45,149 nucleotides of DNA from Porticoccaceae bacterium (GTDB lineage: Bacteria > Pseudomonadota > Gammaproteobacteria > Pseudomonadales > Porticoccaceae). This document shows, one piece after another, positions 19,285-28,709 of the stretch. The notes below the pieces were generated by a model that was given only the letters and a program-made list of their open reading frames with translations, ran no database searches and had not been told where the DNA came from. The translations under genes were made by a program, and so were the position numbers. The stretch lies in contig JAQWMF010000029.1 in the NCBI GenBank assembly GCA_029246925.1, positions 1 to 45,149 of the forward strand, written 5' to 3'. Each line of letters begins with the position of its first letter. Positions within the stretch are counted from its first letter, which is position 1.

Positions 19285-20637
19285 TTATTTTTTAAGAATA
19301 GACGGCCTAATCATAATCCAAATTTCATAGTCTGAATTACGGTGCTTTTGTTGCCCAAATAACCATCCAAGTAGAGGCAATTCTTTTAATTTTGGCAATC
19401 CCTCTGAGTGCTTGACCGCTGATTGCTGCATCATTCCTCCCAATAAAATAAACTCTCCATTATTGACGCTCACCTGATTGGATACTTTGTGTTTTATCAG
19501 CTGCAGATAACCATCACCTCCCACTACAATATCACTAACTGAAGCATCAATTATTTTCAGCGTGACGGTTTTGCTATCAATAATATAGGGGATAATTTCC
19601 ATATTAATTCCATACTCAAGTGTTTCTCTTTCATTATCCTTTTTAGAACTTGAGGACCTCTGAGTGGCCTCGGGATCTTCCTCTTCTACCTGCCACTGAT
19701 TTGCCTGTTGGGTGGTGGAAAACTTGGCTTTTTTACCATGGGCTGAGAGCAGAGAAGGCATAGCTTTAATTTGCGTTTGTCCTGATTTCGCCAGTATTTG
19801 CAGTTGCTTTATTAAATCGGGCTGATCGGAAATAATCCCTTGAGCCAGTGTGGCATTGTTATCATGCCAACGAATACCAAGGCGGCTAATATCGGTGGCG
19901 GTAATTTCTACAATACTCAATTCCAGTAATACCTGCCCTGGTGAATGGTCAAATACCAGTAAGCTCTCTTGTATTTTTTTTTGTAAACCAGGTGGCGCAC
20001 TGATGGTTAAATAATCGGCTCCTTTAGGGTAAAAAACAAATTGTTTTTCAATTTCTCCCAGCGAATTAAACAATAGTTCAGCACTGACATATTGTGGCCA
20101 GTAGCGGCAGTTGATTGATAGAGATGACCAGCTGGGTGTATCGACGGAATTAACGCCCACCAAAATATACTCATTGAAGAATCTATAGCTTAAATTGCTA
20201 GTCGCTGAGATAAGATCAAGCGCCTTATCAAGACGGATATTGCTTGTCTCGATAGTGACTACACCTTCGACAAATTCATCGATCACAATGGGAAAATCAA
20301 TTAATAAACTCATTTCTGCGAATACATCACGCACGCTAGCTTCATAAAAGGATAGGGCTACACTAGGAAGCTGATCAGGATATTCACCACTTTTGCTACA
20401 GTAAATAGGGGAGTGTGGCGTAGGTGATTCTATATCTGATACGGTAGATTGTTGTTGCAATGGTTTATTAGTGTTTGGTATTACCGATTCTAGCTGGATT
20501 TGGTCTTTATATTCCGCGGTTAAATTCTGTTGATTGGAGTGATTTCCTGTATGGCTGCAGGCAGACGATAGCAAAAGACTACAGGCAATAATAATTAGGC
20601 TAATGCGTGGATTTGATGAGCAAAAATTTGCGATCAT
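19285..20637 (-). CDS. Small STN-containing secretin, probable outer-membrane lipoprotein
   Basis: 450 residues. A hydrophobic signal (about 11-26) ends at SSAC, making C27 the likely lipidated residue. A low-complexity linker follows, then an STN/N0-type domain (about 95-165, ASVRDVFAEMSLLIDFPIVI), an N1/NolW-like segment, and a C-terminal secretin domain with the typical end PKLKELPLLGWLFGQQ and GEFILLGGMMQQS. The general plan is MshL/PilQ-like, but a Ser/Lys/Glu-rich insertion lies within the barrel region and the protein is short. Secretins form gated outer-membrane pores. No T2SS, T3SS or type IV pilus partner gene is near; instead it follows a chaperone-like gene (98-base gap), probably in the same transcript. 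Confidence 0.82.
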   Translation of the reverse strand: MIANFCSSNPRISLIIIACSLLLSSACSHTGNHSNQQNLTAEYKDQIQLESVIPNTNKPLQQQSTVSDIESPTPHSPIYCSKSGEYPDQLPSVALSFYEASVRDVFAEMSLLIDFPIVIDEFVEGVVTIETSNIRLDKALDLISATSNLSYRFFNEYILVGVNSVDTPSWSSLSINCRYWPQYVSAELLFNSLGEIEKQFVFYPKGADYLTISAPPGLQKKIQESLLVFDHSPGQVLLELSIVEITATDISRLGIRWHDNNATLAQGIISDQPDLIKQLQILAKSGQTQIKAMPSLLSAHGKKAKFSTTQQANQWQVEEEDPEATQRSSSSKKDNERETLEYGINMEIIPYIIDSKTVTLKIIDASVSDIVVGGDGYLQLIKHKVSNQVSVNNGEFILLGGMMQQSAVKHSEGLPKLKELPLLGWLFGQQKHRNSDYEIWIMIRPSILKK

Positions 20638-20734
20638 CTGTCGTAAAACACTCCTGTATCACTCTATCCACTAGTTGATAGCAGTGCTTGGGTATGCAAT
20701 TCTCTGCCTGTTACCCACAGTGAATGAGCGGTTA

Positions 20735-21646
20735 TTATGATTCTTTTTTTAGAGGATATTTTGCAGTTTCAGCGGTCTTATCCTCAACCATGGACTGACC
20801 TGAATTATCTATACTTAACTTATAATTAAAACTCCGCAGTCTGATGCCATTAAATTTTCCAACAACGCGCATTTCGTAGTCACCAGCGGCTAAGGGTTTA
20901 TCAATCTCACCCTCTACATGGACTAAATTGTTGGGAAATACCAACGAATACAACATATTACTTTTGTGAGATTGATTAGTTAAAAGGGGTATTTTTGTAA
21001 TCAATCGCTTGTTGTGGCGTAAGTGCACTTCTAAAAAAAGCCTTCCTTTGTAGGTAGACTGATTATCAAAATCTAGATGAACCCTACTCATCCCAGATTC
21101 TTTATCCATCTTGATTATAGGATTTAAAATTGCGGTCTTAGGGCGTTTTTTGGATCCAGTAACTTTTAACTCAATGAGACTACCACTGGCATAATTTAAG
21201 GTAACACCAGTTTTTACACTAGGGGTCATCTCGGTCACGCTGATTAAAATATTATGAAAACCATGACTTTTGCGGCTGGGAATTTTGACAGTGCCTTTAA
21301 TCGGCAAGCTTTGCTTGCCATTGATAGAAAATGTATTGCCACTGTCTAACTTGATCCAGTTCCATGGACCCTCTTGAGATTCATCTTCCAGTTTGATCTC
21401 TTTTTGAAAGCCATCTTTATCCTGAGCATAATAGGAGTAGGATATTTTATAGTCCCTCGGAGTATCGTTTATATTTTTTACCTCAAGGTTAAATATGACC
21501 TTATCGCGAGGTTTGGCTTCTATTTTAATACGGGTTGGTGACACGTTTGCGTTTGCATTGATGGGGAGAGTTATCAGTAATGTAACCCATAAAAAGGGCA
21601 AAATGTTGTAACCACCAGTAACCCTTTTAAAGGTGTTTTTTTTCAT
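20735..21646 (-). CDS. Periplasmic fimbrial-chaperone-like (Ig-fold) protein
   Basis: 303 residues with a Sec signal peptide (about 1-34, hydrophobic FLWVTLLITLPINANA). The mature N-terminus NVSPTRIKIEAKPRD is followed by an Ig-like beta-strand pattern (VIFNLEVKNINDTPRDYKI) as in PapD-like chaperones. A second beta domain (about 165-290) contains LHFDFDNQS-like strands ending in GDYEMRVVGKFNG. There are no cysteines. Chaperones of this kind hold pilin-like subunits in the periplasm before export. No usher gene accompanies it; the neighbour downstream is a secretin. A fimbrial chaperone role is inferred from fold pattern and context. Confidence 0.65.
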   Translation of the reverse strand: MKKNTFKRVTGGYNILPFLWVTLLITLPINANANVSPTRIKIEAKPRDKVIFNLEVKNINDTPRDYKISYSYYAQDKDGFQKEIKLEDESQEGPWNWIKLDSGNTFSINGKQSLPIKGTVKIPSRKSHGFHNILISVTEMTPSVKTGVTLNYASGSLIELKVTGSKKRPKTAILNPIIKMDKESGMSRVHLDFDNQSTYKGRLFLEVHLRHNKRLITKIPLLTNQSHKSNMLYSLVFPNNLVHVEGEIDKPLAAGDYEMRVVGKFNGIRLRSFNYKLSIDNSGQSMVEDKTAETAKYPLKKES

Positions 21647-21724
21647 TAGGCAACCTATCCTTGGTTAATTAATCTATACATAAAAGAATAGCACAGCTGG
21701 CTGTAATATATTTTTTGATTAGAT

Positions 21725-21753
21725 AAAAAAACCGACACTAAACTAAGTGCCGG
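21725..21753 (-). terminator. Strong terminator after the secreted-protein gene, inside the operon
   Basis: Read on the minus strand: stem CCGGCACT / AGTGTCGG (one G-T pair), six-base loop, then seven T. It follows the secreted-protein stop (21779) by 26 bases and precedes the chaperone gene, so it should reduce transcription of chaperone and secretin relative to the first gene. Confidence 0.85.
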
Positions 21754-21778
21754 CTTTAGGTGATGATTTAAGAATTTA

Positions 21779-22453
21779 TTATGATACGGTAGGCAAGGCT
21801 CTAACGGTTGCTGTAGCCCTGTAAGTACCAGGAGCCTGAACACTACCCTCTGATCCTATTTGTACACGGAAATAAAATTTGGCCGCATGATCTGTGTAAC
21901 CCACATCTGTATCAAATGCTGTTTGTGCATTAGGCCCGATCAATGTGTAGGCGTTGTTCATATCATTGCTCATTTCAGATACAGCAATACCTGGATTAGC
22001 CACAAAACTTATAGCGTCCACCGAAGATTTCCCAAACACATGTGAGGATTGAGATATATCAATATATACTGATGCATGGGGGATCTCATTGCGCTCGGTA
22101 GTCGCAGTATCTATATGAATTAAGATGAAATCGTCGATTGCAATAGTACTGTCGATATTGGCATGCCATTTAATAACGCCACCGCCAACAAACACCGACC
22201 CTGCACCGCCGGGAACATCTTCTGTGTTGGCTGCATCAGCATCATCAGCGCTGTAGGGGTAGTAATATAGCTCGATATCTGGCATCGCATCTAACAGCAC
22301 AAATTCGTTGATCTCCATCTCTGTGCCATAGCTAGTGGTTTTTTCGCTATCGTCATTGGCAACATCATCAGTGCCATAGACGGCAAAAGCTGATTGTGAA
22401 TAAAAGAATAAAAAGCTGGTGACTGTGACTAGTATAAATTTGAATAGTTTCAT
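21779..22453 (-). CDS. Secreted beta-rich protein, candidate subunit exported by the chaperone/secretin pair
   Basis: 224 residues. ATG 22453 is the start because AGGAG lies eight bases upstream; the earlier ATG at 22471 overlaps that site. A clear Sec signal peptide (KLFKFILVTVTSFLFFYSQ) ends with the cleavage site SAFA. The mature protein is acidic, rich in Asp, Ala and Ser, has no cysteine, and alternates beta-strand-like segments to a C-terminal GTYRATATVRAL. I do not recognise the family; the end is pilin-subunit-like. It has its own sigma-54 promoter and a strong terminator directly after it, the arrangement expected for an abundant surface subunit. Confidence 0.7.
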   Translation of the reverse strand: MKLFKFILVTVTSFLFFYSQSAFAVYGTDDVANDDSEKTTSYGTEMEINEFVLLDAMPDIELYYYPYSADDADAANTEDVPGGAGSVFVGGGVIKWHANIDSTIAIDDFILIHIDTATTERNEIPHASVYIDISQSSHVFGKSSVDAISFVANPGIAVSEMSNDMNNAYTLIGPNAQTAFDTDVGYTDHAAKFYFRVQIGSEGSVQAPGTYRATATVRALPTVS

Positions 22454-22548
22454 GATGGTGACTCCTGTCATTTTCGTTAACTAAAAACCTGTGGTTATAG
22501 TTGTTGAAAATTGAGATTGTTATTTTCAACGACTGTACCCTGATATGT

Positions 22549-22564
22549 TGCAATATCTATACCA
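22549..22564 (-). promoter_or_regulatory. Sigma-54 (-24/-12) promoter of the secreted-protein operon
   Basis: On the minus strand TGGTATAGATATTGCA: GG at -24 and GC at -12 with exactly ten bases between, matching the sigma-54 consensus TGGCAC-N5-TTGCA. It lies about 96 bases before the start codon. A 9-bp inverted repeat GTTGAAAAT / ATTTTCAAC (22503-22530) lies in the transcribed leader. The gene for a sigma-54 activator is immediately upstream. Confidence 0.75.
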
Positions 22565-22651
22565 AATCGAATATAAATATATTAGTAATTGATTTATATA
22601 GTATTGTTTAGTTTCTAGTAAATATTTTTTCTATGAATTTGACGTATCAAT

Positions 22652-22678
22652 CTGTATCACTGGCTGTAACATCAACAG
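22652..22678. promoter_or_regulatory. Candidate activator-binding repeats upstream of the sigma-54 promoter
   Basis: CTGTATC (22652-22658) and CTGTAAC (22664-22670) form a direct repeat 12 bases apart; CTGT-N7-ACAG (22664-22678) is an inverted repeat; a further GTTACAG lies at 22713-22719. They are about 90-155 bases upstream of the -24/-12 promoter, the distance at which sigma-54 activators bind. The sites are a proposal from repetition only. Confidence 0.35.
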
Positions 22679-22713
22679 GGTTTTCTTATAAGTTTGTCAT
22701 TATTGCGATAAGG

Positions 22714-23610
22714 TTACAGAAGATTAAAAGCTTTCATTTTGCGCCACAATGTCATGCGGCTAACGCCAAGGTATTGCGCGGTTTTACCACGACGCCCACT
22801 ATTTAATGACAGTGCATCGACAATTATTTGAGGGTTTAATGTGGTTTTTATTCTTTGGAGATCTAATTCTAGGGCCGTTTGAATACTGTCTGGTAAATCA
22901 CTAATTTTAAGTTTTTTTCCAGTCGCCATGGCAACAGTAAAGCTGGCGCAATTTTCAAGCTCTCTAACATTGCCCGGCCATGGGTAATGTATCAATTTTG
23001 ATTTCAGCAGGGGGTCTAAATCCCAGCTGCTTGATGCCGACGCCCGCTTAAGAAAATAGTCAAAAAGCAATAGGATATCGTCTTTACGATCTCTTAATGG
23101 TGGCGCATAAAGAGGAATCACTTCGAGACGATAACGCAGGTCTTCACGAAATTGATGTTGCTCTATAGCTTTATCTAAACTTAAATTAGATGCAGAGATC
23201 ACAGAGGCGGAAAATTCCTGAAGATTGATATCACCTACAGGATAATACTGTCGCTCTTGAAGTACCCTTAATAATTTGGCCTGTGTGGATGGTGCAAGAC
23301 AGGTGACCTCATCGAGAAAAAGTGTTCCCTCATGAGCGGCATACATCAAACCGGTATTGTTAGTGATAGCCCCTGTAAAGGCGCCTTTTTTATGGCCAAA
23401 TAATTGTGATTCGATTAGCTCGCTGGAAAAATTAGCCACATTAACGGCAATAAAGGGCTCCTTAGCTCTTGCGCTTTCAGCATGTATAGCTCGGGCGATT
23501 AACTCTTTGCCAACCCCAGTTTCTCCCGATATATAGATTGAAACATCAGTTTTAGCCGCTTTTCTGATTTTCTCGAATAGCTCTCGCATTTTGATATTGC
23601 GAGACAACAT
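22714..23610 (-). CDS. Sigma-54-dependent transcriptional activator without sensor domain
   Basis: 298 residues: an AAA+ sigma-54 interaction domain with Walker A GETGVGKE (29-36), the sigma-54 contact loop GAFTGA (76-81) and Walker B LFLDEV (97-102), then a C-terminal Fis-type helix-turn-helix (about 259-298, GKTAQYLGVSRMTLWRKM). No receiver, GAF or PAS domain precedes it, like PspF or HrpR/S, so activity must be set by expression or a partner protein. ATG 23610 has no ribosome-binding site. In-frame coding continues upstream with FHG just before the ATG, as is common at the AAA+ start; an ATC at 23655, six bases after GGAG, would add 15 residues. It sits directly upstream of the sigma-54 promoter it likely controls. 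Confidence 0.88.
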   Translation of the reverse strand: MLSRNIKMRELFEKIRKAAKTDVSIYISGETGVGKELIARAIHAESARAKEPFIAVNVANFSSELIESQLFGHKKGAFTGAITNNTGLMYAAHEGTLFLDEVTCLAPSTQAKLLRVLQERQYYPVGDINLQEFSASVISASNLSLDKAIEQHQFREDLRYRLEVIPLYAPPLRDRKDDILLLFDYFLKRASASSSWDLDPLLKSKLIHYPWPGNVRELENCASFTVAMATGKKLKISDLPDSIQTALELDLQRIKTTLNPQIIVDALSLNSGRRGKTAQYLGVSRMTLWRKMKAFNLL

Positions 23611-23655
23611 CCCATGAAATAAAATGGCTTTGTCTAATTGTGCTTGAGGTTTGAT

Positions 23656-24067
23656 GATACTCTCCCTGAGTCAATCAACAGCTGCCATCCTTGATCAGCT
23701 TAGTACATAAATAATAATATTTATTCATGTATATATATTAAGTGTAGTTTAAATTACAATAAATAGAGATGATATTATCTGATCACTGCTAGTCTGCCCT
23801 AGACTTTGGCTTGGCCGTCTGCTATCTTCATAGGATGAACAGCACCATTTTTCCATCAGATTTCGCACACAACCGAGTCTCACTAGGCTTGGTGTCTATA
23901 GCTTCGCGCCTCCTGCCCTGAGGGGCAACGTACTATTTAATCCAATTAAATCTCGTTTTCGCTCGTAATACTTACATTATTTGAGCGAAATTCTATGCCC
24001 TTATAGGGAAATAAGTTTTACAATACTGCCAAACTATCTGGTGGCAGTTAATCAGGGAAATATAACC
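23656..24067 (+). promoter_or_regulatory. Intergenic region between the activator gene and leuA, with leuA leader structures
   Basis: Some 410 bases without a long gene. The left part (23700-23790) is very AT-rich and should hold the divergent promoters, but I find no clean -35/-10 pair. The right part contains several hairpins: TGCCC / GGGCA around 23914-23926, TTTCGCTC / GAGCGAAA (23957-23964 and 23983-23990), CCCT-TAT-AGGG (23998-24008) and CTGCCA / TGGCAG (24026-24047). The last lies just before the leuA ribosome-binding site. Leucine-dependent attenuation is possible but no T-tract terminator was found. Confidence 0.35.
23835..23921 (+). CDS. Possible leuA leader peptide
   Basis: A 28-codon frame begins at ATG 23835 and ends in TGA within the TGCCC / GGGCA hairpin. 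The second half encodes RVSLGLVSIASRLLP, rich in Leu, Val and Ile, and ends with two Leu codons. Leader peptides rich in the end-product amino acid control leu operons in enteric bacteria. Evidence against: no properly spaced ribosome-binding site and only four Leu codons. Confidence 0.3.
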   Translation: MNSTIFPSDFAHNRVSLGLVSIASRLLP

Positions 24068-26892: not shown

Positions 26893-27423
26893 TTACTGCT
26901 TGATAGGTTTCTTCTGCAACTTACGCTGCAAAGTACGTCTGTGCATACCCAGACTTCTAGCTGTTGCAGAAATATTACCCTGATTATCATTTAATACCTT
27001 TTGGATATGTTCCCATTCCAAACGGTTTACAGAAGTAGGTGCCGTTGGAACTGGTACCTCATTAATGTTGCTTTCTGAGGATGTAAATGCCAATACAATT
27101 TCATTGGCAGAGGCTGGTTTGCAAAGATAGTTAACCGCCCCCAATTTAATGGCCTCCACCGCCGTCGAAATGCTTGAATAGCCCGTTAAAATAAGAACCT
27201 CAGCATGAGGAAGAATATCTTTAATAGAGGTCAAAATAGATAAGCCAGATTCATTGTCTAACTTTAAATCAAGAATTACACGCTCAATATCATGGCTATC
27301 TTCACACAGACTAAAAGCCTGTGGGCCATTATTCGCGCTTTGAACACGATGCCCCTGACGCTCAAGCACTCTAGTAAGAACTGAGCAAAACGTATTATCG
27401 TCATCGACAATTAAATAGTTCAC
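26893..27423 (-). CDS. regA: RegA/PrrA/ActR-type response regulator
   Basis: 176 residues: a receiver domain with acidic pocket DDD (7-9), phospho-acceptor D52 (VILDLKL), a conserved Thr in LILTGYSS and Lys in LCKPAS, a Pro/Thr linker, and a small Fis-type DNA-binding domain with NISATARSLGMHRRTLQRKL, nearly identical in pattern to RegA/PrrA. These regulators control redox-responsive genes (respiration, electron sinks, sometimes carbon fixation). It overlaps the kinase gene by four bases (ATGA), so the pair is co-translated. The gene symbol is by family resemblance. Confidence 0.88.
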   Translation of the reverse strand: MNYLIVDDDNTFCSVLTRVLERQGHRVQSANNGPQAFSLCEDSHDIERVILDLKLDNESGLSILTSIKDILPHAEVLILTGYSSISTAVEAIKLGAVNYLCKPASANEIVLAFTSSESNINEVPVPTAPTSVNRLEWEHIQKVLNDNQGNISATARSLGMHRRTLQRKLQKKPIKQ

Positions 27424-28709
27424 TCTTCATTCTCAGTTTTAAGCGTTAGATTTACTGGCAGGTTAATTGTCGTCAAGGTGCCGCCATCTTCAATATTTTG
27501 CAAGTTAATTGAACCACCAAAACGCGTCACAGTGCTTTGCGATAAAAACAATCCCAAGCCAAGCCCTTCCGATTTATTAGAAAAGAAAGGTTTGCCGATA
27601 TTTTTTATATTGGTGGCATCAAGGCCCACGCCTTGATCTCTAATCTGAATCTCAATTTCAAATTTAGTCCAACTAATGGTTACCTCAACGGAGTTAGGGC
27701 TAGCATCAGCGGCGTTGTTCAACAGATTTAAGATAGATTGTGCAATGGTAGGGTGAAATGTCAGATCTGGAGCTGATACAGCGCAGTCTGCATAACTAAT
27801 ACTGGCTTTAAGTTCTGGACGCATTAGCTGCCAGCGCTCGAATAATGGGTCAAAATATGAAGATAGAGACTGCGCCGAATAGGCATCTGAAGTAGACTCA
27901 TTAGCCGTCGTTTGCAGTTGCTTTAAGGTTATTCTACATTGATCAATTTGTTGACTTAATAGGGTTAAATCTTGGTTTTTATCCTGCTGTTCTAGCATTT
28001 CGTCCACCAATAACTTCATCGTATTGAGCGGTGTTCCCAGTTCATGAGCAGTCCCTGCAGCCAATGTACCTATGGCTAAAAGCTGTTCATCCTGTAACTG
28101 CTGTTCTCGATGCTCAGCGATTTTTTGTTGTTGCGATTTTAATTCGTTAGCCATGCGACTGACAAAGTAGGTAATAATTGCAGCGCTGATAGCAAAATTA
28201 GCCCACATTCCCAGAATATGTAAATTATTTCCGGCCATGGAATGACCCATACTATTTGGAGCTATAGCCGAGACGGGAATATGATAGTTCAGCAGTAAGC
28301 TATAACAGGCCATTGCAATAGCGGCAATCACAAAGGTATAAAGCCCAGGTAAAGCGATAGCGGCAATACTGATTGAGATTAAATAATAGGATATAAATGG
28401 GTTCGAAGCGCCGCCACTAAAATACAGCAAAATACTAAAGAAAAATATATCCACCAACAGATGAACAAAAAACTCTCTGTCGGTAATTGGTATATTGACT
28501 CTGCCCCTATTGGCAGTTGCTATAGTGACTGAAGCATAAATGGCTAGTACCCAAGCAATTGAGCTAGTTGGCAGATCAATGGGTTTAAACAGGCTAAAAT
28601 AAACAAGTGCAAGCCCTTGACCCAGCAAGACAACGGCGCGAATTAGGCCCAGCCTTTTGAGGTTGTGGCGTGAGGCTGAATCAGCCTGATAGTTTGCATC
28701 ATTTTTCAT
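27420..28709 (-). CDS. regB: RegB/PrrB-type redox sensor histidine kinase
   Basis: 429 residues: six predicted membrane helices (about 22-190), the quinone-sensing RegB motif GGASNPF at 99-105, H-box AAGTAHELGTPL with H222, a conserved Cys at 258 (QIDQCRITL) at the position of the redox-active Cys of Rhodobacter RegB, N-box LNLLNNAADASP, and G-boxes RDQGVGLD and GLGLGLFLS. It senses the oxidation state of the quinone pool or cytosol and phosphorylates RegA. The correspondence of C258 to the RegB regulatory Cys is by local alignment only. Confidence 0.88.
   Translation of the reverse strand: MKNDANYQADSASRHNLKRLGLIRAVVLLGQGLALVYFSLFKPIDLPTSSIAWVLAIYASVTIATANRGRVNIPITDREFFVHLLVDIFFFSILLYFSGGASNPFISYYLISISIAAIALPGLYTFVIAAIAMACYSLLLNYHIPVSAIAPNSMGHSMAGNNLHILGMWANFAISAAIITYFVSRMANELKSQQQKIAEHREQQLQDEQLLAIGTLAAGTAHELGTPLNTMKLLVDEMLEQQDKNQDLTLLSQQIDQCRITLKQLQTTANESTSDAYSAQSLSSYFDPLFERWQLMRPELKASISYADCAVSAPDLTFHPTIAQSILNLLNNAADASPNSVEVTISWTKFEIEIQIRDQGVGLDATNIKNIGKPFFSNKSEGLGLGLFLSQSTVTRFGGSINLQNIEDGGTLTTINLPVNLTLKTENEE

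Follow-up and report, generated by a model that had tools for sequence, protein, structure and literature searches.

A putative sigma-54-controlled export locus combining a chaperone with a lipoprotein secretin in a Porticoccaceae bacterium

PapD-like chaperones work with ushers, and secretins are known mainly within machines that have an inner-membrane motor. Here we describe a locus that departs from both arrangements, in a stretch of 45,149 nucleotides from a Porticoccaceae bacterium (contig JAQWMF010000029.1 of assembly GCA_029246925.1; hereafter the window). Four minus-strand genes, lying between pssA-like and leuA-like genes, encode an activator, a subunit, a chaperone and a secretin (Table 1). 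In the chaperone-usher pathways (CfaA/CFA/I, PapD/FimC, Caf1M and Csu) the outer-membrane partner is an usher and the chaperone belongs to the PapD Pfam family, whereas here the partner is a secretin, no usher was found and the chaperone has no PapD match. The WxL/WxLIP clusters (DUF916-DUF3324) are Gram-positive, while the present locus is Gram-negative, carries a secretin in addition and has no Pfam match to WxL in its subunit nor, at E 1 or better, to the WxLIP family in its chaperone. The secretins of the type II secretion system (T2SS), type IV pilus, mannose-sensitive haemagglutinin (MSHA) and type IVB systems (GspD, PilQ, MshL, PilN) share with the window secretin the PF00263 core and an STN-type domain, but the latter falls below their NCBIfam cut-offs, forms its own clade with its own cysteines and has no ATPase, platform or pseudopilin gene adjoining. 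Searches of the open-licence literature of PubMed Central listed no system that pairs a chaperone with a secretin.

The unit is conserved, as is a -24/-12 promoter with upstream repeats before the subunit gene; the chaperone model has a WxLIP-like fold with two Ig domains, and the lipoprotein secretins form a distinct clade. We consider it somewhat probable that the unit is a dedicated, sigma-54-switched export system for a surface protein, with the secretin in the place of the usher.

Table 1. Features of the locus in the window
Feature	Position	Strand	Remarks
Short lipoprotein secretin	19285..20637	-	450 amino acids (aa); lipobox C27, STN/N0-type domain, secretin core, C80 and C177
Predicted periplasmic chaperone, two immunoglobulin (Ig)-like domains	20735..21646	-	303 aa; from model and fold matches
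Terminator-like hairpin after the subunit gene	21728..21757	-	12 pairs, T-rich tail
Secreted, cysteine-free, beta-rich subunit	21779..22453	-	signal peptide; open reading frame (ORF) listed as 21779-22471
Sigma-54 type -24/-12 promoter TGGTATAGATATTGCA	22549..22564	-	9 of 11 positions
Two TGWWACA half-sites	22653..22671	-	TGTTACA 22665-22671, TGATACA 22653-22659; proposed activator binding sites
Sigma-54-dependent activator	22714..23655	-	AAA+ PF00158 E 1e-59, Fis-type helix-turn-helix (HTH_8 E 1e-9), no sensor domain

Recurrence and loss of the unit

Chaperone and secretin genes were adjacent in nine loci, six of them SAR92-type (window, L007, L008, L009, L010 and L006/L016), two from family f40 (L014, L037) and one from family f123 (L026). 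The full order of activator, subunit, chaperone and secretin was present in seven of the nine (window, L007, L008, L009, L016, L026, L037); L010 is without the activator, and the contig of L014 starts just before the chaperone gene. The original prediction, made from the letters of the window, had taken the four same-strand genes for a unit, naming recurrence of the gene order as its check and scattered single genes as its refutation; the order does recur, and the homologues are not scattered single genes save for one locus without a secretin (L015). The nonsynonymous rate (dN, 0.11-0.41) was below the synonymous rate (dS, 0.84-3.29 or saturated) in all 19 comparisons of window genes with orthologues. 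Judged from these sequences, the four genes and their order are beyond chance, as dN is below dS and the gene order recurs.

The neighbours in the window were read as ilvC, pssA and leuA, and the unit stands between pssA and leuA in five of the six SAR92-type loci; in G009 this site is empty and the unit lies at another position. Among 30 pssA loci from 39 genomes of the genus, 4 have the secretin beside pssA and 24 have leuA directly downstream, one ends at a contig end, and in the last (L073, G008:C29) about 35 residues of the secretin C-terminus are left between pssA and leuA. This remnant is evidently a deletion scar, left when a related small genome lost the locus.

Searches with the chaperone gave matches among the relatives (4 of 56) and among genomes of the order (4 of 341), the class (8 of 369), family f40 (2 of 100), the order of G447 (1 of 4) and the phylum (2 of 398), counts that take in already-known genomes and weak hits; L007 to L010 come from named genome records. 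Six weak hits among the 369 class genomes had no related secretin in 7.9-15 kb and were assigned to other chaperone families, and a hit in G278 (E 0.0037), with a stop inside, was set aside. In G1141 a related chaperone has no related secretin within 19 kb by profile. Distantly related chaperones stand beside small secreted proteins in L027, L028, L030, L032 and L042, which may represent another chaperone system; L027, L030 and L032 have a 668-729 aa protein near the chaperone, and the L030 chaperone has a weak WxLIP_PGBD match (E 0.0032, below cut-off). Among plasmids there was no match to the window chaperone, and the L014 chaperone gave one weak match, from Deinococcus, with no secretin annotated in the region. 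The chaperone-like protein beside hypothetical proteins on the Deinococcus psychrotolerans plasmid NZ_CP034185.1 (L033) hints at a wider family beyond Proteobacteria. A phage search gave no match to the L015 chaperone.

A remnant or divergent form of a chaperone-usher operon would account for the chaperone fold and for the weak Fimbrial family match of the L006 subunit, which lies below cut-off (E 0.034, 14.9 of 25.6 bits). However, the usher family PF00577 had no match in the genome carrying the window (G000; 1.55 Mb, 105 contigs, about 91% complete), with a positive Escherichia coli control, the genes are intact with dN below dS, and the same gene set occurs in other families. This explanation is largely refuted and we give it very little credence; the secretins, forming a separate clade, do not point to the remains of a T2SS or type IV pilus operon either.

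Chaperone, subunit and secretin

The window chaperone had no Pfam match above cut-off (best E 0.071), no NCBIfam match, and no match to the WxLIP family at E 1 or better. Its model is beta-rich, with a mean predicted local distance difference test (pLDDT) of 80.9, and aligns with two-Ig-domain proteins, in line with the Ig-fold chaperone-like protein predicted originally. The best match in both fold and sequence was WxLIP, the structure of which has been solved bound to WxL; in the fold ranking WxLIP stood above the usher-type chaperones, and some unrelated Ig folds equalled the latter. On this model, the protein is a predicted two-domain Ig-fold periplasmic chaperone with a WxLIP-like two-domain fold, and it would link the Gram-positive WxLIP proteins with the Gram-negative fimbrial chaperones. 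The L026 chaperone also hit a toxin model of NCBIfam (15.6 of 600 bits), which was dismissed as chance.

The subunit is probably translated from position 22453 (MKLF.., with AGGAG 8 nt upstream) rather than from the listed 22471. It has a signal peptide and no cysteine, as had been predicted. It belongs to no Pfam or NCBIfam family; the WxL domain had no Pfam match in the window subunit at E 1, nor in six related subunit domains at E 10. Its AlphaFold model was unusable (pLDDT 34.9), and profile-search hits in the PDB were at chance level only. The likeness between SAR92 and other subunits is weak (hhalign probability 4.5%), yet it falls in colinear blocks, as it does between the window subunit and the corresponding domains of L014, L015, L026 and L037. 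In the profile comparison the scores of five of the six SAR92 subunits were reached by 1 of 1800 shuffles and that of the window subunit by 5 of 1800; in the reverse direction the result was weaker, with 0 to 4.2% of shuffles reaching the score. The subunit is the fastest evolving of the proteins (between L008 and L009 its dN is 0.33, whereas the chaperone has 0.15 and the secretin 0.08), as expected for an exposed protein; because dS is close to saturation in many comparisons, only the ranking was used.

Outside SAR92, the loci L014, L026 and L037 add a large subunit of 434-443 aa, with the subunit domain first and DUF4842/LruC at the end; DUF4842 has no match in the genome of the window. LruC hits on plasmids came from 13 records, and two of the neighbourhoods (unannotated) had no such chaperone or secretin by profile. 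Small and large subunits also occur together in WxL clusters (PMC10599100). This parallel, the WxLIP match of the chaperone and the existence of L015 would suit a WxL-like surface complex, where chaperone and subunit form an envelope scaffold and the secretin serves release, uptake or anchoring. We find such a complex improbable, since the chaperone model is without the C-terminal membrane helix and a secretin adjoins in 9 of 10 loci with this chaperone type.

The window secretin was predicted to be short, lipid-anchored and STN-containing, and so it appears: the PF00263 core was found (E 3.4e-29) together with the lipobox, although the STN match (E 3.4e-5) is under the curated cut-off (24 vs 28.4 bits). 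One further N domain is suggested by our reading of the alignment. Against the NCBIfam models of GspD, PilQ, MshL, HofQ, SctC and PilN the protein scored below cut-off throughout (GspD, 109.6 of 351.35 bits). A tree was built from 25 secretins, namely eight of the nine locus secretins (L008 left out) and 17 others from the searched genomes, pIV not being included. The eight formed one clade (support 0.991) apart from the GspD, PilQ, MshL and PilN-like groups, whose labels come from family-model matches and clade membership. All eight carry the lipobox cysteine and invariant cysteines C80 and C177, around the N0 region, and the three are present in the L008 secretin too; none of the 17 others has a cysteine in either the C80 or the C177 column, although the alignment has gaps at these columns in 10 and 9 of them. 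C80 and C177 look like a lineage-specific disulfide. Against plasmid records the L037 secretin had 562 matches, all below 60% identity, with generic secretins among the ten matches listed.

The shortness of the secretin, and the presence of a solved virion export protein among its profile hits (E 1.4e-16), could point to descent from pIV, the export secretin of filamentous phages, or from a prophage. GspD scores better, though (E 8.9e-23), no phage genes were recognised beside the secretin in the window, and none of 600 candidate viral-contig stretches held a relative in one scan with two peptide patterns, a weak test. We regard this origin as hardly credible.

A more serious alternative is that the secretin is a second outer-membrane exit for the resident T2SS, whose ATPase, platform and pseudopilins would push the chaperoned subunit outwards, bypassing GspD. 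It is the main rival because T2SS genes occur in the window's own genome and a GspD-clade secretin in all eight genomes searched. Contig C21 carries GspD, E, G, K and L over cut-off, with F, H and C-like genes below it and GspI, J and M by reading of the gene list only; the secretin, moreover, keeps its STN-type domain. On the other hand, the clade and its cysteine signature are separate, the unit is not accompanied by any pseudopilin or ATPase gene, and the T2SS is so common that its presence is uninformative. Nor is a T2SS known to require an Ig chaperone specific to its subunit, which also counts against this explanation, and we judge it rather unlikely. In the window no assembly ATPase, inner-membrane platform or pseudopilin stands beside the secretin, and platform clusters with secretins of their own are on other contigs; besides C21, contig C15 has a type IV pilus-like cluster whose secretin is PilN-like, below cut-off. 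The latter cluster (L068, G000:C15) also includes a T2SSE ATPase and a weakly T2SSF-like protein; a protein close to the end of the contig was read as pilin-like and has a C-terminal Peptidase_S74 domain, which is more typical of phage tail fibres.

Sigma-54-type control

The activator consists in Pfam terms of PF00158, a lid and HTH_8, and a Pfam scan of the window protein gave no match for REC, PAS or GAF, consistent with the sensor-less activator of the original prediction. With this AAA+ activator, a -24/-12 promoter and rpoN present in the same genome, the genes are a predicted sigma-54-controlled operon. The site TGGTATAGATATTGCA ends 78 nt upstream of the listed start of the subunit, and a site with 9-11 of 11 positions lies before the subunit gene in all five SAR92 loci that have the activator, a score of 9 being reached by shuffled upstream regions in 0.2-2.1% of trials. 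In L010 the interval from leuA to the subunit gene contains no activator gene, and no site there has at least 9 positions (best 8, far upstream). Of the other families, L037 matches at 11 of 11, and in L026 the -24 element is good and the -12 element poor.

Half-sites of the form TGWWACA are repeated in 8 of 10 upstream regions (window, L007, L008, L009, L006, L037, L026 and L015), with 2-5 non-redundant sites per positive locus against shuffle means of 0.2-0.3, both strands counted. The shuffle P ranges from 0.012 (window) to <0.001, but the motif was picked after the sequences had been inspected and hence these values are no independent tests. There are none in the activator-less L010 or in L014, whose region precedes the chaperone gene rather than a subunit gene. 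A perfect palindrome, TGTAACNNNNGTTACA, matches strongly in L026 and L037 and moderately in L008 and L009, but is absent from the window, L007 and L006, and because of this absence we claim the half-site alone.

The activator ORF was listed from ATG 23610 (298 aa), while conserved in-frame codons reach ATC 23655, the end coordinate given in the original prediction, and the coding frame upstream of the ATG is kept in the alignment of four other loci. There is no ATG, GTG or TTG in the window frame from the upstream stop to the conserved region; at 23653-23668 (minus strand) a Shine-Dalgarno-like AGGGAG lies 6 nt before the ATC. The same column reads ATT in L007, ATC in L008 and L009 and ATA in L016; a GTG stands one codon before it in L016, and GTG or TTG further upstream in L007, L008 and L009. 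A conserved non-AUG start codon is possible. RNA elements were absent from the window at the gathering threshold, and one match around the activator start at a relaxed threshold was set aside as chance-level. The hairpin after the subunit gene may act as an attenuator before the chaperone and secretin genes, as if favouring the subunit over both; terminator-like sites number 5 in the region and 3.7 in shuffles.

REC-type sigma-54 activators occur in L026 and L037, the two non-SAR92 loci with the upstream region present. L014 further has a CHASE histidine kinase and one HD-GYP-type regulator, and L037 two HD-GYP-type regulators, called from HD_5 matches with the GYP label as our reading. The original reading, a minimal export or fibre system of no known type, is partly supported: the gene set recurs as a unit, but the non-SAR92 loci, with their LruC subunit, REC activators and HD-GYP regulators, are less minimal. 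Elsewhere in the window (26893-28709, minus strand) a possible RegB/RegA-type pair was read from the gene list, made up of a histidine kinase and a response regulator that is short and has a C-terminal HTH.

A possible chaperone-secretin route

In the dedicated export system that we favour, the subunit would cross the inner membrane by Sec and be held in the periplasm by the chaperone. The secretin, presumably self-lipidated, would assemble in the outer membrane and receive the subunit from the chaperone; the subunit would then leave through it and form a surface layer or fibre. Outside SAR92 the large LruC subunit may be a minor, anchoring or adhesive component. Energy could come from folding of the subunit, as in chaperone-usher systems, or from a borrowed platform.

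Some observations weigh against this proposal. L015 (G098:C103, 2971-4872) has the subunit and chaperone without a secretin, between hisF-like and hisA-like genes. With at most one mismatch allowed, the window has 9 copies of the -24/-12 pattern where 8.18 would be expected by chance, and the site is taken as meaningful because of its conserved placement and not its frequency. It is also possible that the secretin borrows a platform encoded elsewhere, such as the T2SS of C21 or the pilus-like cluster of C15, as was suggested originally. As a separate observation, L015 has TGWWACA repeats upstream and no activator gene was seen on its 7 kb contig.

More tentatively, and with rather less confidence, we propose that the locus could represent a new Gram-negative class of surface-protein or fibre export, a chaperone-secretin pathway in which a WxLIP/CfaA-type chaperone passes its subunit to a secretin that is dedicated to it and self-lipidated, without usher, ATPase or inner-membrane platform, sigma-54-switched and elsewhere wired to two-component and HD-GYP (cyclic di-GMP type) regulators. 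Chaperone-dependent surface export is already known, and what seems new is the pairing of chaperone and secretin, export itself being a prediction here. If the pairing without usher or motor is true, it would suggest that chaperoned subunits can leave the outer membrane through a secretin, and it makes a function of secretins free of an ATPase-driven platform directly testable; platform-free export through a secretin, if shown, would be categorically new. Among the SAR92 carriers with a listed genome size, four of the five assemblies are of 1.3-1.6 Mb and G009 is of 2.1 Mb. That small genomes keep a unit of about 4.3 kb suggests an ecological role, perhaps at surfaces.

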